Shown piece after piece: positions 34,459 through 62,932 of a stretch of DNA of 64,000 bases. Location of the stretch: contig RDOG01000002.1 in the NCBI GenBank assembly GCA_011365055.1, forward strand, positions 186,001 to 250,000. Reading direction: 5' to 3'. How positions within the stretch are numbered: position 1 is the first letter of the stretch; the number at the start of each line of letters is the position of its first letter. Below the pieces are notes generated by a model that had not been told where the DNA came from, did not search any database, and was given only the letters and a program-made list of their open reading frames with translations. This DNA comes from Promethearchaeota archaeon (GTDB taxonomy: Archaea > Asgardarchaeota > Lokiarchaeia > Helarchaeales > RDOG01). A program made the position numbers and the translations under genes.

Positions 34459-36267
34459 ATGAACGGGTACATGAATGCTGGGCTTTTAATTGATTTAAGC
34501 GATAAAAAAAGTAAAGAACTTACTGTCAGTAGACAATTTGCCCAATTATATATAGGGGGAAGGGGATTTGGAGCGAAGATCATTCATGATAATGTTAAAA
34601 ATATTGAAGCATTCGATCCGAATAGTTTGATTGTAATGGCAACTGGACCTTTAACGGGTGTTTTAGCACCAGGTTCGCCAAAAACTTCATTTAGTTTTAT
34701 ATCTCCAGCCACTAACATTTACGGAGATTCCAATATCGGTTCAAAATTAGGATTAGAGCTTAAAAAAGCAGGATATGATTTACTTATCATACGAGGGAAA
34801 GCGAGTTCTCCAACAATTATTAAAATACTTGATAATGAAATAAGTTTTGTTGATGCAAGTGCGTATTGGGGGCTAAAGACTTTTAATGCTTCTGATGAAA
34901 TTCAAAAAGACATGGGAGGAAAGTATCATGCTGTGGCAACGATAGGTCCTGCGGGAGAAAACTTATGTACATTTGCATCTGTTCAATCAGAAAATAGGTT
35001 TGCAGGTAGAACGGGATTAGGGGCTATATTTGGAAGCAAAAACTTGAAAGGATTGGTAATATCTGGATCAAATCCCATTCAAATAGCAGATTATTCAAAA
35101 CTGGTTCAAACCTATAAAGACGTTAACGAATTTTTTAAAAATCATCCCAATACTGAATTTTTTCAAAAATTTGGGACTTTTGGGTTGTTAGAAGGCGTTA
35201 ATGAGCATGGGATAATGCCAGCAAATAATTTTCAACTTGGTCATGTTGAAGCATTAGGAGAGATTACGGTTGAAGGATACACTGCAAAAGTAAAACGCCA
35301 AGTAACTCAAACTTGCTTGTATTGTCCTGCAACTTGCGAAGGTGTCTTCAAGAAGAACGGAGAAAAGCGGATTAGACCTCAATATGAAAGTTTAGTCATG
35401 TTAGGTCCTAATTTAGGAATATATGATTTAGATTTTGTTATTGAATTAAATCATATTGCAAATGAAATAGGTGTTGATACCATTTCCTTGGGAAATCTCT
35501 TAGGATTAATGATGGAAGCTTATGAAAAGAAATTGATTCCGCGGGAGAATTTTGATGGATTAGCATTTAATTTTGGAAATCAAGAGCATGTAATTGAATT
35601 TATTAATAAAGTGGCACGAAGGGAAGGAATTGGAGACATTATAGCTGGAGGAATCCGATCAATTTTAGAAAAGTTTCCTGAATTAGAAGAATTTTCGCTT
35701 CATTCAAAATATTTAGAACAATCAGGATATGATACGAGATCATTATATGGTCAATGTCTTGGATATGCTACAAGTGATGTCGGAGCACACCATAATCGTG
35801 CGTGGACTGCTTATCATGAATTAAAATTTGAAAATTCTAATGAGGATTTAGCAGATTTAGTTATATATCATCAACACGTTAGACCATTAATGGATTGTTT
35901 AGGTGTATGTCGATTTCCTTGGATAGAATTTGATATAGACTTGAAATTTTATGAGAAATTTTACGAATATGCAACAGGGTTTAAAGTCTCAATTAACCAA
36001 TTATTGAAAAGATCCGAAGGAATTTATAATTTAACAAGATTGATAAATTTAAGACGGGGGATTAAGCGAAAGGATGATTATCCACCGAAACGAGTTACGA
36101 CGGAGCCGATTCCAAATGGTCCAAATAAAGGAAAATTAATAGATTTAAAAAGATATGATGAACTCTTGAGCTTGTATTATAAAAAAAGAAACTGGTCTAA
36201 AGAAGGAATTCCTAAAAAAGAACATGTAAAAAATTTGGGTATATTAGACCTTGATTTTATTTTATGA
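34459..36267 (+). CDS. aldehyde:ferredoxin oxidoreductase family protein
   Basis: 602 residues of tungsten/molybdopterin AOR. The N-terminal pterin domain has YIGGRGFGAKII and GPLTGVLAPGS. The Fe4S4 ligands are in CLYCPATCEG (CxxCxxxC) with the distal Cys in DCLGVCRF. These enzymes oxidise aldehydes to acids with ferredoxin as acceptor. The nearby IorAB and acyl-CoA synthetase make an aldehyde or acid route for aryl or acyl groups plausible. Substrate cannot be inferred further. It ends six bases into a convergent PAP2 gene. Confidence 0.93.
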   Translation: MNGYMNAGLLIDLSDKKSKELTVSRQFAQLYIGGRGFGAKIIHDNVKNIEAFDPNSLIVMATGPLTGVLAPGSPKTSFSFISPATNIYGDSNIGSKLGLELKKAGYDLLIIRGKASSPTIIKILDNEISFVDASAYWGLKTFNASDEIQKDMGGKYHAVATIGPAGENLCTFASVQSENRFAGRTGLGAIFGSKNLKGLVISGSNPIQIADYSKLVQTYKDVNEFFKNHPNTEFFQKFGTFGLLEGVNEHGIMPANNFQLGHVEALGEITVEGYTAKVKRQVTQTCLYCPATCEGVFKKNGEKRIRPQYESLVMLGPNLGIYDLDFVIELNHIANEIGVDTISLGNLLGLMMEAYEKKLIPRENFDGLAFNFGNQEHVIEFINKVARREGIGDIIAGGIRSILEKFPELEEFSLHSKYLEQSGYDTRSLYGQCLGYATSDVGAHHNRAWTAYHELKFENSNEDLADLVIYHQHVRPLMDCLGVCRFPWIEFDIDLKFYEKFYEYATGFKVSINQLLKRSEGIYNLTRLINLRRGIKRKDDYPPKRVTTEPIPNGPNKGKLIDLKRYDELLSLYYKKRNWSKEGIPKKEHVKNLGILDLDFIL

Positions 36268-50271: not shown

Positions 50272-51585
50272 TTAATATTTTCCATATACTTTAATAGCTT
50301 GTAAATACCACTTTATATTTTCTATTTCTACCCCGGAATGCCATCCATTATCTGCAGCTATAATATAACGCCCATCTCGCTTTAAAGTCAAAATTGCTTT
50401 TCCAGCCATTTTATACGCTTCTCTAGCAGTCTTTGCTAGTTGAAGAACATTTACACAACTTATTCCACCTACTAACGTAATATTTTTATCCATTACATGC
50501 CTTTTCAATTCGGACAGATCGTTAACGTCTTGCTGACAACCATGAATCATATCAATGCCAGTAGAAAGAATAGTATCAAAGAAATTATATGGTTTTTCAG
50601 TCCCATCAATTCTAAAGGTTCCATCAGTATGAAATAATACCTTAATTCCTACTTTATGTGCAGCATCACAAATTCGTTTTATTTCTGGAACGAAATAATT
50701 CTTATAAATATCTTCCTTGATAAAAGGAGAATTATCATCACAGATATCTTCGACCAAGGTCACGATCTTTACTTCTGTTTCTTCACCAAGTCGTTTCACG
50801 TATCTCGCAAGTAATTTCGATTTCTCCGTAATCAAATTTTTGTAAATGCCGTAAGGGGAACCTTTATTATACTCTCTCATTAGTTGTCTGAAAAATAAAT
50901 GCATGTTAGACTGTCCAAATGCAACATGCCAAGTTTCAAATATTCCATTAAATGTTGGAGAAACTGCAATCTTACCTTTTTGAGTTGCATGAGTTTTTCC
51001 AAGATATTTAATTCTATCATCAAGATCATAGGTTCTGATCCAATATGTCAGTTTTTCGATTTGTTCTTTAAAGTCAGGAAAAAATGTTCCATGTACTCTA
51101 AAATCACCTACTTCATCTACATCTGTTAAGTTATAATCCTCTGAGACGATAAATCTTTTGCCATTTTGAGTAGTCATTCCCCTTACTATGATTGAAGGAA
51201 AGCCCCAAGTCGTGACCAAGTCAATACCCAACCTTCTAGGCATGAAATACGTGAGATTTTGAAGGTTATCATAAAAGTCCAACGTGGTGGGAGTACTAAT
51301 TACGGATGATGCAATTTTATCAATAAAAAAAGCTTTTCTAATCCAACTCTTAGGAATTGGTTTACTGAGTTTGAAATGTTCTTTTGCAGCCTGGACTGCA
51401 GTCTCGAATCCTTTGAGATTTAATAACCATTCTCGAAGTTTTTTGGGCATTAGATCGAAAAAAAGAGAGAATTTAAAGGTAGGAAATGGATTAAATCCAA
51501 GTTCCATATGCGGACAACGGTCTAATATTTCACCATCAATACAACGTAGGATTCTTTCTTCAGGATCAATTTTCATTTCGTTCAT
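50272..51585 (-). CDS. uroporphyrinogen decarboxylase-like (URO-D/MtaA superfamily) protein
   Basis: 437 residues, longer than UroD or MtaA (~340). TIM-barrel features include VLFHTDGTFRIDG and a C-terminal ITLVGGISCVNVLQLAK. MtaA-type coenzyme M methyltransferases carry a HxC zinc-thiol motif; here the corresponding stretch is HTDG, so the zinc site appears absent. Related long URO-D-like proteins occur in corrinoid methyl transfer and other anaerobic C1 routes. In a genome with Mcr, corrinoid or CoM chemistry is tempting, but substrate is unknown. Confidence 0.75.
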   Translation of the reverse strand: MNEMKIDPEERILRCIDGEILDRCPHMELGFNPFPTFKFSLFFDLMPKKLREWLLNLKGFETAVQAAKEHFKLSKPIPKSWIRKAFFIDKIASSVISTPTTLDFYDNLQNLTYFMPRRLGIDLVTTWGFPSIIVRGMTTQNGKRFIVSEDYNLTDVDEVGDFRVHGTFFPDFKEQIEKLTYWIRTYDLDDRIKYLGKTHATQKGKIAVSPTFNGIFETWHVAFGQSNMHLFFRQLMREYNKGSPYGIYKNLITEKSKLLARYVKRLGEETEVKIVTLVEDICDDNSPFIKEDIYKNYFVPEIKRICDAAHKVGIKVLFHTDGTFRIDGTEKPYNFFDTILSTGIDMIHGCQQDVNDLSELKRHVMDKNITLVGGISCVNVLQLAKTAREAYKMAGKAILTLKRDGRYIIAADNGWHSGVEIENIKWYLQAIKVYGKY

Positions 51586-55870: not shown

Positions 55871-57511
55871 TTAAGCGGCTCTTTGTTTAGCCAGCTCTTG
55901 TTCTTCTATCTTCTTGAAGTGATTTATAACTTCATCAGGATCTCCTGGACCAGCAACTAATTGTCCATCTTTCATTAACGCAGCTCGATCACATACGGCC
56001 AATATAAAATCAATATCATGGCTTATTATGAAATATGTCTGTTGAAGATCTTCACGTGCTTTTTTTATGGATCTAACAATTTCCATCCTTGTTAGAGGAT
56101 CTGCAGTTCCCGTGGGTTCATCTAATACTATCATTTTCGGCTCTTTAATGAGAACCCGTGCGATAGCAACTCGATGTCTTTCACCTTCAGATACACCTTC
56201 AGGATATTTATAAATCAAAGCATCAATTTCCTTATTTGTAAAATTAACTGCTCGTAATGAATCATACGCTTTTTTAGTTTTATATTCATCTGCCATGGGT
56301 TGCTCTATTGCACCTGTTAGATTCTCTAAAATGGTTAAATGTGGATATAATGCATATTCTTGATGTAAAATTTCCATATATTTTGTTGCCCGACCTCGTT
56401 CTTCAGGTCCATCGACACTCATATCGATCCAATCGTCTCCAATTTTGACTTCTATAAGACCATCGGTAATTTTTTTCTCTCCGATGAGCATTGAAACTAA
56501 AGATGTTTTCCCACTGCCACTAACACCGACGAGTCCGAAGATTTCACCCTCGTTCACATCAAAATTTACTTTTCGAACTGCTCTAACAATACCTCGATCA
56601 TATGTATAATAAGTCTTCTCGACATCTTTTACCTTAACTAATGGATTTGTGAATGTTTTTCTGTCTATTATAACTTCACCCATTCGATCCATAAATTCTT
56701 TTGCACAATTTTTAGGATCGCCTTGAACCACAACTTCACCATCTTCGAGTAAAATAGCTTCTTCAGATAATTCGACTACTGCTTCTGGCCAGTGTGAAGT
56801 GATCAATAAGGTTAAACCTTCATCTGCTACCGCTTTTTTCATAACATCATGCACTGCGACAGCAGTTAATGGGTCTAATGTACCACTAGGCTCATCAGCA
56901 ATAAATAGAAGGGGATCTCTAGCTAAGCACATGGCAAAAACTGATCTTTGCTTTTCTCCTCCTGAGAGATCTCTAGCTAAATGCCCAGCACGGTGGTTTA
57001 GTCTCACCATATCAATTAATTCTGCTGCTTTTCGATCAGTTAATTTCTCAGGATAATTAATTTTCTTTAAAATTCTTGTTAGGTTTTCTGTAACAGTTAT
57101 TTCTCCAAATATACCAAATGTTCGTTGAAACATAATTGCTATTCGATTATATAATGCATAAGATAATGGAGTAGAATTTTGTTTTTCTTCCCAAAAATCA
57201 ACTTCTTTATATCCTAATTTATCTCCACAAACTGGACACTCAGTCCCTACTTTACTTGGATAACTAATATACATGCAACTTTCATTTGGACAGAGGGAGA
57301 TGTGATAAATTATCTTTCCTCTTGTTGGTTCATAATCTTTTGTTCCTCTTACTGCATTCATCAAGACAGACTTTCCGGAACCTGATTTACCTAAAATACC
57401 GAATGAATGACCTTCTTTTATTACAAAACTAATATTTTTTATCGATGGTTCGCCTCTAACGAACTCCTTAGTTAAATCTTGAACTTCCAAAAATATTTTA
57501 TCTTCACCCAT
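55871..57511 (-). CDS. atwA: AtwA-like ATP-binding component A2 of Mcr activation
   Basis: 546 residues with two ABC ATPase domains, as in AtwA. Domain 1 has GKSGSGKS (41-48), a CxxxxC plus CPVC zinc knuckle (74-95), signature LSGGEKQRS (182-190) and IADEPSGTLD. Domain 2 has a second Walker A (SGSGKTSL), signature SEGERHR and VLDEPTGTAD. In methanogens A2 uses ATP in reducing F430 nickel from +2 to +1. The ATG at 57511 (GAGG eight bases upstream) is preferred to the GTG at 57520. It closes the mcr operon, 12 bases after the SCP2-like gene. Confidence 0.88.
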   Translation of the reverse strand: MGEDKIFLEVQDLTKEFVRGEPSIKNISFVIKEGHSFGILGKSGSGKSVLMNAVRGTKDYEPTRGKIIYHISLCPNESCMYISYPSKVGTECPVCGDKLGYKEVDFWEEKQNSTPLSYALYNRIAIMFQRTFGIFGEITVTENLTRILKKINYPEKLTDRKAAELIDMVRLNHRAGHLARDLSGGEKQRSVFAMCLARDPLLFIADEPSGTLDPLTAVAVHDVMKKAVADEGLTLLITSHWPEAVVELSEEAILLEDGEVVVQGDPKNCAKEFMDRMGEVIIDRKTFTNPLVKVKDVEKTYYTYDRGIVRAVRKVNFDVNEGEIFGLVGVSGSGKTSLVSMLIGEKKITDGLIEVKIGDDWIDMSVDGPEERGRATKYMEILHQEYALYPHLTILENLTGAIEQPMADEYKTKKAYDSLRAVNFTNKEIDALIYKYPEGVSEGERHRVAIARVLIKEPKMIVLDEPTGTADPLTRMEIVRSIKKAREDLQQTYFIISHDIDFILAVCDRAALMKDGQLVAGPGDPDEVINHFKKIEEQELAKQRAA

Positions 57512-57523
57512 ATCATACACCTC

Positions 57524-58036
57524 TTACGGAAATCCTATCGGCCAAAATTTAGGCCTTTGTCCTTTTGCATCATTAATTTTCTTCCCAGCAGCTACTTCCA
57601 AAATATCAGATTGATCAAGTAATGAAACAACATTCCCATAGACTTCAGCTCTTCCCAACCAAGCACCCAAGGAAAAATCATTGGTGTTACCCATTAAAAA
57701 ATTAGCCAAATCATAATAATTAAATCGAAATACAAGATCAGGTTCTGTATCAGGAATGGATGGATCAACTGAAGTGGGCGAAATCATAAAACTTATTCTT
57801 TCAACCATATTTTTTTTCGGATGGAATATTTCCAATAATATTAACCTATGTGGAATTAATGAAGCAATTTTTACTGCTTCAGGTGTAATTATAGCTTGGT
57901 CTAACATGTAATCCATGAAAAGCATAACTCCTGCAGGTTCAGATGTACCTTTATCTCGTACCCATGGAATTTTATGCCACCATAGATCTTCAAATTCATC
58001 TTCCCACCATTCTTTTTTCTTCTTAATTTCACTCAT
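57524..58036 (-). CDS. SCP2-like protein in the mcr operon
   Basis: 170 residues starting MSEIKKKKEWWEDEFEDLWW. The second half, PDLVFRFNYYDLANFLMGN followed by LGRAEVYGNVVSLL, matches the hydrophobic pocket strand-helix pattern of sterol-carrier-protein-2 domains, which bind lipids or hydrophobic ligands. GGTGA lies five bases before ATG 58036, one base after the mcrA stop. A lipid- or alkane-binding helper of the Mcr-like enzyme is an inference from position and fold. No Mcr gene cluster in methanogens carries such a gene to my knowledge. Confidence 0.6.
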   Translation of the reverse strand: MSEIKKKKEWWEDEFEDLWWHKIPWVRDKGTSEPAGVMLFMDYMLDQAIITPEAVKIASLIPHRLILLEIFHPKKNMVERISFMISPTSVDPSIPDTEPDLVFRFNYYDLANFLMGNTNDFSLGAWLGRAEVYGNVVSLLDQSDILEVAAGKKINDAKGQRPKFWPIGFP

Positions 58037-58037
58037 A

Positions 58038-59813
58038 TTATTCACCCTTTTCAATCTCCTCTATTCCTTTAATTAATGAATCATACGGATCTTTAAAATT
58101 GAATGAAAGAGACTTATCTGAGAAGGCTACTTTTACTAACGGAGATGCAACCCACGGATCGCCTCTTCCCAATGCAGCACAATATGCAATTCCGACTTTT
58201 GCAAGAGCATTTCCTGGAGTCATAGATAAATAGGGAGAATTCATTCCATGTAATTCAGAAATACCACCTTCTTCAAGACGTAATGCACATGATGCAGGAA
58301 ATCCAATATGAGCAGGCATATCGAATCCCGCAGTACCACTTCGCGTCCAACCTTCTTTTATTAAGTGTCCAGCTACATAATTATATGCCCAATTACCAAC
58401 AACTGAACTTCCCGTTAATAATGCTGCGATATTCGCACCTATATTAGTTAAAATATAAGTTCTTTGATCACCAGATAAGTATTCCATTAAAGTAAAATAT
58501 TTTTCCATGCGCTCCATCGCTAAAATTATTATATTTTCAATAACCCATCTAATAGCTCCCCATTTTTTATCAATTAATTTTTTATTCGTTTGTAATATTT
58601 TCGTGAAATACCTAGCAATAATGCTATTGACCATCCCTAAAAATTCTTCAGTAACGTTTGCGGTAACTGTGCTTATTAAAAGGGCATTTGAATGATTCAA
58701 TCCACCAAAAACTTCTAAATCATAATGGAAACATTCTGTCAAGATAGGTACTATTACGCCCATACATTTAACGGCACTTCCTAAGTACTGCATTGAAAGA
58801 TCTTCACTTTCATTTGCAATTTCAATAAATGGTTTTGCAGGTAAATCCGATTCAGCTTGACAGATATCTGCAAAAAATCCAAATGGAATGTTACCTAGAG
58901 CATTAGAGTTCAATCCTAACAAGATTTTTTGTTGTTTTTTAGTCGTCATGGCTAAATCTGCAATAGTACTATTACTTGTCATCCTATAGGTGTTCAGAAA
59001 TCCAATAGTAGCTTGCATACCAATCCAATTTTCCGCATGATTAGCTAGAACTGAAGGAGCTCTTCCAACTAGAAAGATAGTATCACCAATTACTTTATTT
59101 AATTTTTCAGCTCTACTCGGATGAAAATTTTTATCAATATCAATGAGAAAACGGGAATCTAATATTGATTTCACATCAGGATCGCCTGTGATCACCTTAC
59201 AATATCCATCTGCTGTAATTCTTGGATCAATTTCAGTTTTTTGACCTTGAATTACTGCACCACCCATTATTGCATGATTAACTGTTTTCAAATATTCATT
59301 AACAGTAATAGGAGTGACTTCCTTTCCTGCTCGGATTTGAACGATGTGATGAGGAATATCCAAATTAAGCATAACTGTTCTTCTTACATCATTTACAAGC
59401 GTTCTCATTGCTTTATTATTGATGAAATTTAAAACATCCATTTCAATCTCTTTTTCTGTTCCAGATATTATGGGTCTAATAATCTCATCTTGACCAATAG
59501 GCGTTGCCACTGCACGATTATATGCAGGAATCTTTCTATTTATAGAAATTTCTTTTCCAGCAGCTTGAAATTGTTGCTTCATCATGGATTGCTTAAATCC
59601 AGGTCGTTGATACATGCTAAAATCGAATTCTTCGGTTGGTTCTATAAATTGGAAAATTTGTTCGAGTGTCTGCCATAATTTAGTTTCCTTTTCTAAAGGT
59701 AAAAAATCCCTTAATTTTGCAACTGCAGAACGTAAATATTGACTCGCTTTGGCAGTTGATTCCATATCTAATACGTCTGCGGGTAGTTTTCCTTTTTTTA
59801 ACGGTCCAGCCAT
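58038..59813 (-). CDS. mcrA: McrA-like alpha subunit of alkyl/methyl-coenzyme M reductase
   Basis: 591 residues (family ~550). Similarity to the Methanothermobacter enzyme runs end to end: IPAYN, VSGT/ISGT, RRTV, GKEVTP, FLIDI, PFGFFADICQ (310-319) and SPLVKVAFSD. Q189 matches nickel-ligand Gln147, Q450 matches methyl-Gln400 and G496 matches thioglycine 445. The pocket loop GGVGFTQYA is GGLNHSNAL (370-378), so Phe330 is His and Tyr333 is Ala; Phe443 is Thr494. His257 is Lys293, and the loop with Arg270/271 is about eight residues shorter. SD AGGAGGATT. It is the catalytic alpha subunit in a B-G-A operon and probably makes alkyl-CoM from a non-methane alkane. Confidence 0.95.
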   Translation of the reverse strand: MAGPLKKGKLPADVLDMESTAKASQYLRSAVAKLRDFLPLEKETKLWQTLEQIFQFIEPTEEFDFSMYQRPGFKQSMMKQQFQAAGKEISINRKIPAYNRAVATPIGQDEIIRPIISGTEKEIEMDVLNFINNKAMRTLVNDVRRTVMLNLDIPHHIVQIRAGKEVTPITVNEYLKTVNHAIMGGAVIQGQKTEIDPRITADGYCKVITGDPDVKSILDSRFLIDIDKNFHPSRAEKLNKVIGDTIFLVGRAPSVLANHAENWIGMQATIGFLNTYRMTSNSTIADLAMTTKKQQKILLGLNSNALGNIPFGFFADICQAESDLPAKPFIEIANESEDLSMQYLGSAVKCMGVIVPILTECFHYDLEVFGGLNHSNALLISTVTANVTEEFLGMVNSIIARYFTKILQTNKKLIDKKWGAIRWVIENIIILAMERMEKYFTLMEYLSGDQRTYILTNIGANIAALLTGSSVVGNWAYNYVAGHLIKEGWTRSGTAGFDMPAHIGFPASCALRLEEGGISELHGMNSPYLSMTPGNALAKVGIAYCAALGRGDPWVASPLVKVAFSDKSLSFNFKDPYDSLIKGIEEIEKGE

Positions 59814-59825
59814 ATAATAATCCTC

Positions 59826-60635
59826 CTACATATCGTTCAATAAATCGGGTTTAAACCCTCCTAATATTCTTAATAAACATAAACGGTCATGAAACATAAA
59901 GATCTCAGTTCTTCCTTTATATGTATGGTAATCATTTCGATACATCACGTTTAATCCTTGAAGATCAATTTTATCGACAGGGAATCCCAAAGTTATAGGT
60001 TTATCCAATGTATTTGCATCCATATCTTTCAGAGCGACAATATGACCTGAGTCAAAATCCAGTGTAGTTCTCCTTCTCACGTCAAACATATTTTCTACTT
60101 CATCTAATCGGTGAGAATGTCCCTCAGGATCTATTGTACGTAAAGAAGTTCGAACAGAATCAAATGCTTCGGTTTCAATAAAGGGTTTCACAACTTCTTC
60201 AACATCTCTTTCTCTCATTTCTAGTAACTCTTTTTCAGCGTAAATAATAGTATCCACTCCTCGAAATCGATTAAAATAAGTTCGAGCTCGCAACCAAGGT
60301 CCAAGTGGAGCTTTCATTGAATCAACAAATTGAACATATTTCATTCTATCACCTTCTTTTGCTCCTGGTGAAGGTACAACCAATTCTTTAATAGGATCAA
60401 ATTTTTCCATAAGTTCATCCAATGGTGGATGAATTGAAGAATACAAACCTCCAGCTGCTCTATGACCTAGTAAAGTTACGACATAATCATCAGGAATATG
60501 TCTAATTTTAATTAATCTTTTTTCAGGATTCATCAATTTTCTTCTTCTGAATGAAGATCCATCAGATCCTGGATAAAATTGTCTTGTATATTCTTTTACT
60601 TGCTTTATTTTTCTTCTTTCAGCCATGGGCATCAT
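59826..60635 (-). CDS. mcrG: McrG-like gamma subunit of alkyl/methyl-coenzyme M reductase
   Basis: About 269 residues. Family landmarks are kept: FYPGSDGSS, IPDDYVVTLLGHRA, SIHPPLDE, PGAKEGDRMKY, RARTYFNRFRG, GHSHRLDE and the C-terminal RILGGF. Gamma closes over the F430 pocket with alpha and beta. The ATG at 60635 is spaced correctly from GGGAAG; the GTG at 60641 overlaps the mcrB stop. It lies between mcrB and mcrA without the mcrC and mcrD genes usual in methanogens. Confidence 0.95.
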   Translation of the reverse strand: MMPMAERRKIKQVKEYTRQFYPGSDGSSFRRRKLMNPEKRLIKIRHIPDDYVVTLLGHRAAGGLYSSIHPPLDELMEKFDPIKELVVPSPGAKEGDRMKYVQFVDSMKAPLGPWLRARTYFNRFRGVDTIIYAEKELLEMRERDVEEVVKPFIETEAFDSVRTSLRTIDPEGHSHRLDEVENMFDVRRRTTLDFDSGHIVALKDMDANTLDKPITLGFPVDKIDLQGLNVMYRNDYHTYKGRTEIFMFHDRLCLLRILGGFKPDLLNDM

Positions 60636-60637
60636 AA

Positions 60638-62008
60638 TCACTTCCCTTTTTGTGCAGCCTCACAAATTTGTTTTAACGGATTATCAAAAAATGGTTCCGA
60701 TTCTTTTAATCGAATAAATACTTCACTTGTCGTTTCAGGGCGTTTTAACTGCGTTCCAGAATCAAGGCAAATAGCAGCAGCTATACAAGGGGACATGAAT
60801 GATGAATGTCTCAAAAATTCAGAATCCATTGCATAAGATCCAATATCACCTTCATCACCTAGAATAGAATGCGTGTAGAGATTTAAACCTAAGCCTGCAC
60901 CCATAATTCGACCACAATCAGGATCAGGTAATCCTCCAGATTCAAACATTAATAAATCACTAAATCCTGCAAAAACCCCAGAAACGGATTGAGCAGCTCT
61001 ACTTGCACCACAATTTACTATCGAAGCTGCTAATAATCCGGCGCATGTATAAGCATTCCACTTTGCAAAATCGTCAGATTTAAAAAATTGAAAATCAGAA
61101 AATAGTTTTGATGGATAAGCTCTACCATGTCTTTTAATTAAACCATCTTCCATGCCAATTTTCATTAGAGAGGTAACTACATCTCCAACAGTCCCTGCTT
61201 GATTCTCATTTATCAAATCATAAACAACACGATCGGCATTTAAGCCTTGATATGCTAATCCAAGGAGATGGTATCTTTCAAACCAACCTATTGCATTTCC
61301 TATTTCAAATTGACTTGCTTGTTCAAGAATAGAAGAAAATATTACAGCATCAAATGTTCTTTTATGAGCTAACCCAACAATGTTGTTAAATAAGGTGTTT
61401 TTATATCCAAAGCCAGGTATTTCTGATTGTGGCTCTCTTAGTAAACCAAAAACTGGATTTCCAGGTTGAAAACCATTTTTTGTAAGAGGATATTTCCCAA
61501 AAACTGCAGTCTTTAATAACGCACAACCATCTGGATCAGTTAGAGGATTGATATCAAAAATGTCGCTAAGTGCTTGCATTAATGCGACACCTGTAGAAGA
61601 ATAGGTTACTAAACGACTTGCACTTTGCATCAATCTTTTAGAGGGAATTTTCACAATTAAAATGTCATTACCTCTCAATAATTTGATTTCTGAGTCATCA
61701 TCCTCTGAGTTTTTTATAATTTTTTCAACCTTTTCTTGTATTGCTTCAGCGTTTGCAAAAATTTCCCAATCTCGGGTAAAAGAAGTAAGTTGAACATCAC
61801 AATGTTTCAATGATGTCGAGTATCCAACTTGACCTGTATTTATCATCAATTCTAATTTTTTCAAATCAATAAAACAAGTTCGTTTGAAATAATCAAGGAA
61901 TTTAACCATATAAGCATTATTCAAAGGACTTAAAGATTCAATAGGTAAATCTTCTGCAAGACAATTACCTAAATCATCAAAAATATCAACCTTATCCGCA
62001 TATTTCAT
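60638..62008 (-). CDS. mcrB: McrB-like beta subunit of alkyl/methyl-coenzyme M reductase
   Basis: 456 residues, close to the family size. Conserved strings include DKVDIFDDLGN, ESLSPL, AVFGKYP, SSILEQASQFE, YHLLGLAYQGLNAD, WNAYTCAGLLAA and CIAAAICLDSGTQ. The pocket segment FFSHSIY is LYTHSIL (377-383), so Phe361 is Leu and Tyr367 is Leu, while the His and Ser-Ile are kept. ATG 62008 with AGGTGA is better placed than the ATG at 62014. First of three Mcr subunits in the transcript. Confidence 0.95.
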   Translation of the reverse strand: MKYADKVDIFDDLGNCLAEDLPIESLSPLNNAYMVKFLDYFKRTCFIDLKKLELMINTGQVGYSTSLKHCDVQLTSFTRDWEIFANAEAIQEKVEKIIKNSEDDDSEIKLLRGNDILIVKIPSKRLMQSASRLVTYSSTGVALMQALSDIFDINPLTDPDGCALLKTAVFGKYPLTKNGFQPGNPVFGLLREPQSEIPGFGYKNTLFNNIVGLAHKRTFDAVIFSSILEQASQFEIGNAIGWFERYHLLGLAYQGLNADRVVYDLINENQAGTVGDVVTSLMKIGMEDGLIKRHGRAYPSKLFSDFQFFKSDDFAKWNAYTCAGLLAASIVNCGASRAAQSVSGVFAGFSDLLMFESGGLPDPDCGRIMGAGLGLNLYTHSILGDEGDIGSYAMDSEFLRHSSFMSPCIAAAICLDSGTQLKRPETTSEVFIRLKESEPFFDNPLKQICEAAQKGK

Positions 62009-62010
62009 AA

Positions 62011-62241
62011 TCATTCACCTAATTTCTTTAAATATTCATTGTGGCATTTTGGACATTCGGATTCTTTAACTGTCTTATCTTCTGGACCCCGCCAGTAACA
62101 GTTTTGACATTCCCAAATACTACCTTTCTTTTTTAATCTCCACTGAGGAGAATGACCTACATCACAATTAGGACAAATTACCACTTGATTTAAATCAGAA
62201 CCTTCCCAATCACATCTTGTACATTTAAATGAATTAGACAT
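62011..62241 (-). CDS. double zinc-ribbon protein preceding mcrB
   Basis: 76 residues with two similar four-Cys knuckles: CTRC/CPNC (residues 7-29) and CQNC/CPKC (residues 45-66), each with a Trp-Xaa-Gly (WEGS, WRGP) after the first pair. The last codons supply the SD of mcrB, so the genes are translationally coupled. It might bind RNA or DNA or help metal handling for Mcr. No family recognised, and I know of no such gene in methanogen mcr operons. Confidence 0.7.
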   Translation of the reverse strand: MSNSFKCTRCDWEGSDLNQVVICPNCDVGHSPQWRLKKKGSIWECQNCYWRGPEDKTVKESECPKCHNEYLKKLGE

Positions 62242-62476: not shown

Positions 62477-62932
62477 TTAGAACTTTTTCAATTCAAATTC
62501 ACAACGATCGGCACCTTGGCGGTAGTGAGCACCAACGCCAAATACGATACTTGGATTAGCAAGTCTTACGATTGTTTCAACAAATTTATCTTTTAGTTTA
62601 TGGCATAATGGAGGAAGTCTCTTCTCTTTTAAAAGCGTCCAAATATGGCATTCTTTAATAACCAATATGCTTTTATCAGCATTACCGGTCACTTCCACAT
62701 TTTTAAAACCAAAGATGTCAGTATATATTTTTTTCAGAAATTCTGCAACATCAGGAATTTCTGCTGAATTTAATTGATATTTTTCTTTAAGTGCTGGAAA
62801 TATGTCTTCAGCAAATCTTTTCCACGTATTTTCAGCAACATTAACTCCTCTCGCAAGCCCTAATTCATCTTTTAAAGTAGCAATAGTTGAGACTAATAAA
62901 GAATTATATAAGTTTTGAATCATCTCACTCAT
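62477..62932 (-). CDS. hypothetical protein with V4R / thiazoline-hydrolase-like C-terminus
   Basis: 151 residues. The C-terminal part (CHIWTLLKEKRLPPLCHKL, then RQGADRCEFEL) has Cys, Cys and the GADRCEF ending pattern seen in L-2-amino-thiazoline-4-carboxylate hydrolase-like and V4R domains. N-terminal part is helical. AGGTGA lies before the ATG. It is the gene just upstream of the mcr operon, on the same strand but separated by 235 bases. Function unknown. Confidence 0.55.
   Translation of the reverse strand: MSEMIQNLYNSLLVSTIATLKDELGLARGVNVAENTWKRFAEDIFPALKEKYQLNSAEIPDVAEFLKKIYTDIFGFKNVEVTGNADKSILVIKECHIWTLLKEKRLPPLCHKLKDKFVETIVRLANPSIVFGVGAHYRQGADRCEFELKKF

Follow-up and report, generated by a model that had tools for sequence, protein, structure and literature searches.

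An operon in a 64,000-nucleotide stretch of a Promethearchaeota assembly (GCA_011365055.1, contig RDOG01000002.1, positions 186,001 to 250,000; hereafter the window, whose own numbering we use) encodes an intact relative of the alkane-type methyl-coenzyme M reductases (Mcr) from a branch that has lost the charged residues anchoring both thiol coenzymes, and it includes a gene for a sterol carrier protein 2 (SCP2)-like protein that is the conserved partner of a whole clade of these enzymes. Mcr and the alkyl-coenzyme M reductases (Acr) are the entry enzymes of archaeal anaerobic methane and alkane metabolism, and to our knowledge every characterized Mcr or Acr uses the cofactor F430, coenzyme M (CoM), and coenzyme B (CoB). 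The reading that we favor, at about even confidence and from sequence comparison, is that the window enzyme has a remodeled coenzyme site, likely holds Ni-F430, and would activate a hydrophobic alkane or alkyl group onto a thiol, while its SCP2-like neighbor would carry the oily substrate or the alkyl-thioether product.

The operon lies on the minus strand and reads, from 62241 to 55871, zinc-ribbon gene, mcrB, mcrG, mcrA, SCP2-like gene, and atwA, with every frame intact and with neighbors that overlap or stand no more than 12 bp apart. The zinc-ribbon protein at its head (62011..62241, 76 aa) is an intact open reading frame with weak zinc-ribbon profile matches. The mcrB-like gene (60638..62014, 458 aa) scores 241 bits to Pfam MCR_beta, with both beta domains over cut-off, and the mcrG-like gene (59826..60641, 271 aa) scores 235 bits to Pfam MCR_gamma and passes TIGR03259 (216.5 bits, cut-off 172.1). 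The mcrA-like product (58038..59813, 591 aa) is over cut-off for Pfam MCR_alpha_N (217 bits) and under it for the C-domain (20.3 bits, cut-off 25), and Mcr alpha chains in the PDB align to it in two parts, residues 43-346 and 421-584 (best E 2e-77). Next come the SCP2-like gene (57524..58036, about 170 aa; an upstream TTG would move the start to 58054) and atwA, for Mcr activation component A2 (55871..57520, 549 aa; TIGR03269, 666.5 bits against a cut-off of 517.1). McrA and McrB both fall below the NCBI equivalog cut-offs (TIGR03256, 296.1 bits of 767.75; TIGR03257, 356.2 of 516.25) and are thus remote family members. The original prediction, made from the letters of the window, had described just such a complete and divergent B-G-A operon of nearly touching genes, with a zinc ribbon before it and SCP2-like and AtwA genes after, and the frames, spacing, profile matches, and predicted SCP2 fold bear this out. 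It had also reported mcrC and mcrD as absent from the operon, and neither was among the operon proteins in our profile scan, the rest of the window not having been scanned for either. A gene of the kind that it had noted as Roadblock-GTPase fusions was likewise found, a Roadblock-Ras fusion convergent with atwA and ending 4 bp away.

Many canonical positions of the enzyme are changed, as might be expected of a pseudogene or of an assembly chimera. However, a Helarchaeota metagenome-assembled genome (MAG), Meg19_1012_Bin_504, carries the same block on contig JALGVI010000018.1 (locus L001): the end of a 151-aa gene, zinc ribbon, mcrB, mcrG, mcrA, SCP2-like gene, and atwA, in the order of the window and with intact frames. 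Between the two loci, changes at third codon positions are close to saturated, whereas the other two positions are conserved (identity at positions 1/2/3 is 0.67/0.78/0.43 for mcrA and 0.76/0.89/0.42 for atwA). Because the frames are intact and codon positions 1 and 2 are held, the window operon is under purifying selection. Together with the congruent trees of the three subunits described below and the gene order of independent MAG relatives (L001, and others by consecutive locus tags), this leaves a pseudogene or chimera with next to no probability, and we rejected both; an artificial join of the Mcr block, which had been named as a risk, is further made unlikely by the Roadblock-Ras fusion gene so close to atwA.

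The window enzyme belongs to the Mcr/Acr superfamily by descent, and homologues of the alpha, beta, and gamma subunits are encoded side by side. A first contig scan with the window protein alone as query found no relative. Among database proteins, the window McrA is 83% identical to one Helarchaeota MAG protein, 54-61% to seven more, 90% to one 329-aa fragment, and 44-48% to a next group of mostly Helarchaeota proteins; all other matches, Hodarchaeota and Bathyarchaeota Acr included, are 37-42% identical, and the window organism is likely a member of the Helarchaeota. We built a quick McrA tree of 84 rows, which included 28 chosen loci outside the SCP2-bearing clade and 34 of the 44 listed McrA relatives, and which left out duplicates (L082, L084, L165, L171, L176, L177, L179), L052, and all McrA pieces shorter than 480 aa (L063, L067, L078, L170, and L182 among them). 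In a more careful tree of 45 of these rows, the SCP2-bearing clade, with 28 rows and the window among them, is split from methane-type, ethane-type, and other Syntrophoarchaeal McrA at 100/100 support. Inside this clade lies a long branch of 13 Helarchaeota-type rows (length 0.53; 100/100), and within that branch the window groups with P0002, P0003, P0009, and L001, again at 100/100. The quick McrA tree agrees, and quick trees of McrB (45 rows, support 100) and McrG (48 rows, support 99) are congruent with it. The enzyme is therefore placed in the alkane-type (Acr) clade, outside methane- and ethane-type Mcr, by all three of the subunit trees that the original prediction had called for; none of them puts it within methanogen Mcr, the outcome that would have refuted that prediction, and the view of the locus as Helarchaeota-type holds as well.

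Where the window enzyme departs from its superfamily is the coenzyme site. We took the contact list from Table 1 of a modeling study of M. ruminantium Mcr (PMC12842094) and scored a position as kept when two or more of 20 methane-type loci share its residue; the near-perfect scores of L061, L058, L042, and L037 are partly by construction, these loci being members of the reference set. The window keeps 16 of 40 F430 contacts, 2 of 10 CoM contacts, and 3 of 21 CoB contacts, and its relatives L001 (14, 3, and 4) and L002 (13, 2, and 3) are similar. The corresponding counts are 28, 6, and 13 for a conventional Asgard Acr (L003), 24, 6, and 14 for an Archaeoglobal Acr (L079), 24, 7, and 17 for an ethane-type enzyme (L060), and 19, 2, and 10 for Syntrophoarchaeum L013, which keeps every charged anchor despite its divergent pocket. 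From the basic cluster that holds the CoB phosphate (alpha 225, 256, 270, and 271; beta 379) the window retains only alpha Lys256. Arg225 is replaced by Asn, and the loop with Arg270 and Arg271 is deleted between residues 303 and 304 (58902..58907, minus strand; 8 to 9 alignment columns). The same deletion is seen in alignments of P0002, P0003, P0004/L001, and P0009 (the fragment P0024 is not comparable) and amounts to one change on the tree; in the residue comparison, the "other" McrA are those besides L001, L084, P0001, P0024, and five partial loci. In McrB, the position of His379 (M. marburgensis numbering) is Ser in the window and His in 67 of 68 other sequences, and the positions of Gly369 and Tyr367 are Asp and Leu. 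The gamma subunit has lost Arg120, which forms a salt bridge with the CoM sulfonate (PMC12842094): the window has Lys at this position, L001 has Thr, and the eight closest McrG read K, K, T, T, K, M, N, and T. Arg120 is present in 76 of the 79 McrG of our loci, the exceptions being the window, L001, and its duplicate L084, and in 89 of 99 McrG homologues, with losses in the window and all eight closest. The axial ligand of F430, alpha Gln147, is kept as Gln189, as is the equivalent of Gly445. P0002 also keeps the axial Gln, and the site is Leu in 20 of the 25 Helarchaeota-branch rows of the 84-row tree, L001, P0003, and P0009 included; Leu at this site has already been noted for some Helarchaeota/Lokiarchaeota sequences (PMC9118554).

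One rival explanation is an ordinary Acr that still uses F430, CoM, and CoB and in which different residues make up for the lost contacts, as happens in other divergent Acr. The retained axial Gln, Gly445, Lys256, and AtwA, the Lys at gamma 120, and the wide divergence of the Syntrophoarchaeum-type McrA pocket all speak for it. Yet outside the window and L001, gamma Arg120 occurs in 76 of 76 loci and beta His379 in 67 of 68, and the mixture of K, T, M, and N at gamma 120 among the closest relatives looks like a released constraint rather than one compensated change; we regard an ordinary Acr as possible, with a probability clearly short of even. Because gamma Arg120, the CoB basic cluster, and two equivalog cut-offs all fail, we do not file the window protein as a functional alkyl-coenzyme M reductase, though it may yet function in the same way.

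An entire Acr clade has the SCP2-like gene as a conserved partner. Whole-genome searches returned 19 strong matches in 12 genomes, seven in Asgard archaea and the other 12 from a set of 25 further genomes, and each of them lies within 3 kb of an mcrA. With the window included, all 20 SCP2-like genes lie within this distance, 18 on the strand of mcrA and 16 of those with a gap of no more than 146 bp. Trees place 17 of these 20 loci (15 by McrA and two by the B and G subunits), every one in the window's Acr clade; the remaining loci, L067, L170, and L182, have mcrA fragments that stand outside the tree placement. Across 227 Asgard genomes, McrA occurs in four, with one, one, three, and two copies, the SCP2-like gene occurs in the same four in the same copy numbers, and AtwA is over cut-off in the same four. 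Further, McrA and SCP2-like distances are correlated (Spearman 0.724, 0 of 2000 permutations, 14 loci). The methane- and ethane-type genomes that we examined gave no strong SCP2-like match, and none stands next to seven further mcrA copies in SCP2-bearing genomes. The 75 mcrA loci without the gene include duplicates, L006/L171, and L082: the gene of L082 lies beyond the sequenced piece compared and is seen in L183, and the contig of L006, which has a clade mcrA, stops 256 bp past that gene, so that presence cannot be judged. Weak matches in two Asgard genomes without McrA (G192, E 3e-5; G193, E 1.5e-4) each cover less than half of the profile and were rejected as family members. Structure prediction and fold search point to an SCP2 fold for the protein. 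Beyond the SCP2 core, all 12 aligned members share a strictly conserved WPxGxP tail at the C-terminus.

Several genomes carry more than one type of mcr locus. Four MAGs, recognized by locus-tag prefix (ACTSO9, HWN67, ACTSRG, and ACTSRS), each encode two kinds of SCP2-like protein, a Helarchaeota type and a conventional type (63-68% and 30-39% identical to that of the window, respectively), so that the enzymes of the wider Helarchaeota branch are probably often second copies; none of the four has the loop deletion, and the genome G001, discussed below, has one McrA only. In Syntrophoarchaeum (L164, G230:C12, 2531-5018), an SCP2-like gene stands beside one of four mcrA copies, the one in the window's Acr clade. 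Two Archaeoglobi genomes (G228 and G234; L005, L033, L079, and L178) have two mcr operons each, the alkane-type with the SCP2-like gene and the other type without it. A small Euryarchaeota MAG (G229, L168-L172) has five McrA matches, with a divergent SCP2-like gene beside three, and a Hadesarchaea MAG (S4B3_HD70; L063, 1-5903) shows two acrA/SCP2 sets (C38 and C13), in pieces at contig ends.

Another alternative is that the branch enzyme works without F430, with another cofactor or in a non-redox role. The Leu at the axial position in most Helarchaeota-branch members fits this, as does the survey of F430 synthesis and related genes in relatives' genomes. G001, with a single McrA that belongs to the loop-deleted group, and G002, which has another member of the Helarchaeota branch, show no match to CfbB, CfbD, CfbE, McrC, or HemC; among Asgard genomes only G003 has CfbD over cut-off, together with CfbB, CfbE, and McrC. 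However, G004, which has a conventional Acr, also lacks CfbB, CfbD, CfbE, and HemC matches, though McrC is present and over cut-off; the Hadarchaeal MAG G233 gives no CfbB or CfbE match; G229 and G235 give weak CfbB matches only; and HemC was missed in G228 and G231 although both carry CfbB, with McrC below cut-off in G228 too. We thus dropped the idea that this branch alone has lost F430 synthesis: such misses would fit F430 loss in divergent lineages, yet they arise in MAGs that are expected to use F430. The MAGs are also incomplete, with a reported completeness of 82% for G004 and 87% for G002 (PMC6478937), and ComA, of CoM synthesis, was found in two of 16 genomes searched and is uninformative. 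Since the window and P0002 keep the axial Gln, and G001 and G002 keep AtwA, we consider an F430-free enzyme decidedly unlikely.

Under the reading that we favor, F430 would still sit in the pocket of the window enzyme, given that the enzyme retains the axial Gln and the Gly445 position and the operon its activator AtwA, whereas CoM and CoB would be bound differently, or other thiols used, as the charged anchors are gone. The SCP2-like protein would bind long alkyl chains, delivering an oily substrate or taking an alkyl-thioether product, in the manner of SCP2 proteins: a C16 fatty acid is bound in 1pz4, and alkylsulfatases carry an SCP2 domain. The SCP2 domains of alkylsulfatases found in the fold search are parts of enzymes of alkyl sulfates, and an alkyl-CoM is an alkyl sulfonate, a likeness that is suggestive only. 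The protein could instead be an assembly or cofactor-loading factor that stands in for McrD, given its fixed place beside mcrA, the operon in which no mcrD was seen, and a tail of the kind expected for docking. However, the methane- and ethane-type genomes examined and seven other mcrA copies show no strong match to it while their enzymes need F430, and we think a loading role unlikely. A bolder extension would be that an Mcr-fold enzyme of one Helarchaeota lineage has abandoned CoM and CoB, and in most members perhaps F430, so that long chains delivered by the SCP2-like protein are activated onto another thiol or with another metal cofactor. This would be the first Mcr with changed coenzyme chemistry, and we judge it improbable. 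With an Asgard branch that is under purifying selection and has lost the charged residues anchoring both thiols, it becomes testable whether the Mcr fold can run on other coenzymes. For one alkane-type Acr clade the SCP2-like gene serves as a simple genomic marker, and its product is a candidate route for very insoluble alkanes to a buried active site. This is relevant to oil degradation and to the alkane metabolism that relatives of the eukaryote ancestor are proposed to have.

Several observations weigh against our reading. Syntrophoarchaeum is reported to make alkyl-CoM although L013 keeps only two of 10 CoM contacts, so that divergence of the pocket alone is compatible with CoM; the Lys at gamma 120 of the window could still bind a sulfonate; and Arg120 is also lost outside the eight closest McrG, in P0103 (T) and P0108 (A). 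The contact list is itself a product of modeling, the AlphaFold model of the window McrA is poor (predicted local distance difference test score 63.6, with low-confidence loops) and gives no pocket, and the F430 survey concerns the genomes of relatives rather than that of the window. As for the partner protein, it matches no Pfam or NCBIfam family at E 0.1, it aligns to SCP2 with moderate template-modeling scores (0.40-0.54, normalized by query length, for the 13 best matches), and in two of the 20 loci its gene is on the opposite strand from mcrA, while in two atwA intervenes.

Asgard mcrABG genes outside methane-type Mcr were described in Helarchaeota and proposed to serve alkane oxidation (Seitz et al. 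2019; PMC6478937). The Hel_GB_B locus of that study (L002) falls in the same Helarchaeota subclade as the window, and an SCP2-like gene adjoins its mcrA; to these enzymes the window's group adds the loop deletion and the loss of gamma Arg120. The accessible text of that paper does not mention F430 or cfb, and its Results, as accessible, name no SCP2-like neighbor. "Drastic substitutions" of coenzyme residues in Helarchaeota/Lokiarchaeota sequences have been pointed out (Lemaire and Wagner 2022; PMC9118554); the accessible part of the article names neither a deleted loop nor a lost gamma Arg120, and no SCP2-like partner. Relative to what both papers make accessible, the SCP2-like partnership, the loop deletion, and the gamma Arg120 loss are new, and the deleted CoB loop, the lost anchors, and the partnership with the whole Acr clade also go beyond the original prediction. 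We found no link of Mcr or Acr with SCP2 or sterol carrier proteins in the open-licence literature searched. In conventional Asgard Acr (LW55_61, L003; Hel_GB_A, L004), which belong to the same Acr clade, mcrA, mcrB, mcrG, SCP2-like gene, and atwA are clustered, and alpha Lys256 and Gln147 are kept as in the window; unlike the window, they also keep alpha Arg225, Arg271, beta His379, and gamma Arg120. The SCP2-like protein shares its predicted fold with SCP2 proteins and the alkylsulfatase SCP2 domain (4jgx, 1pz4, SdsA1, and Pisa1) at less than 20% identity, and unlike known SCP2 it is tied to Mcr loci, lacks a Pfam match, and has an extra N-terminal segment in addition to its conserved C-terminal tail.

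The short-chain alkanes named as candidate substrates in the original prediction are not supported, and the substrates reported for clade relatives are long-chain: in the accessible text of one study, hexadecyl-CoM is reported in a culture of the Hadarchaeon Ca. Cerberiarchaeum oleivorans, and Methanoliparia are said to use alkanes of C13 and longer (PMC10811742). The MAG "Hadesarchaea archaeon S4B3_HD70" (G233; L063/L067) is likely that of this hexadecane activator. Like the window, it has an SCP2-like gene directly after acrA, and the B and G trees place L063 in the SCP2-bearing clade; its acrA is in fragments, so that the comparison does not extend to the alpha anchors. The accessible text describes a single complete Acr operon (PMC10811742), as against two SCP2-like genes in G233.

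Around the operon, a hypothetical 151-aa protein is encoded upstream (62477..62932, minus strand; weak Pfam ATC_hydrolase/MetOD1), and L001 conserves its C-terminal portion in the same position, ahead of the operon (1-210, E 9e-27). Homologues of the zinc-ribbon protein stand directly before mcrB in L001 and on the other strand, about 1.1 kb from mcrB, in L002; there is one in L033. At 50272-51585 (minus strand) the window encodes a URO-D family protein with a weak likeness to methylcobamide:CoM methyltransferases (NF004889 at E 1.6e-6, well short of its cut-off), which could act on alkyl thioethers. A gene at 34459-36267 (plus strand) resembles aldehyde ferredoxin oxidoreductase (174 bits of a cut-off of 868), an enzyme proposed for the conversion of alkyl-CoM to acyl-CoA (PMC10811742).

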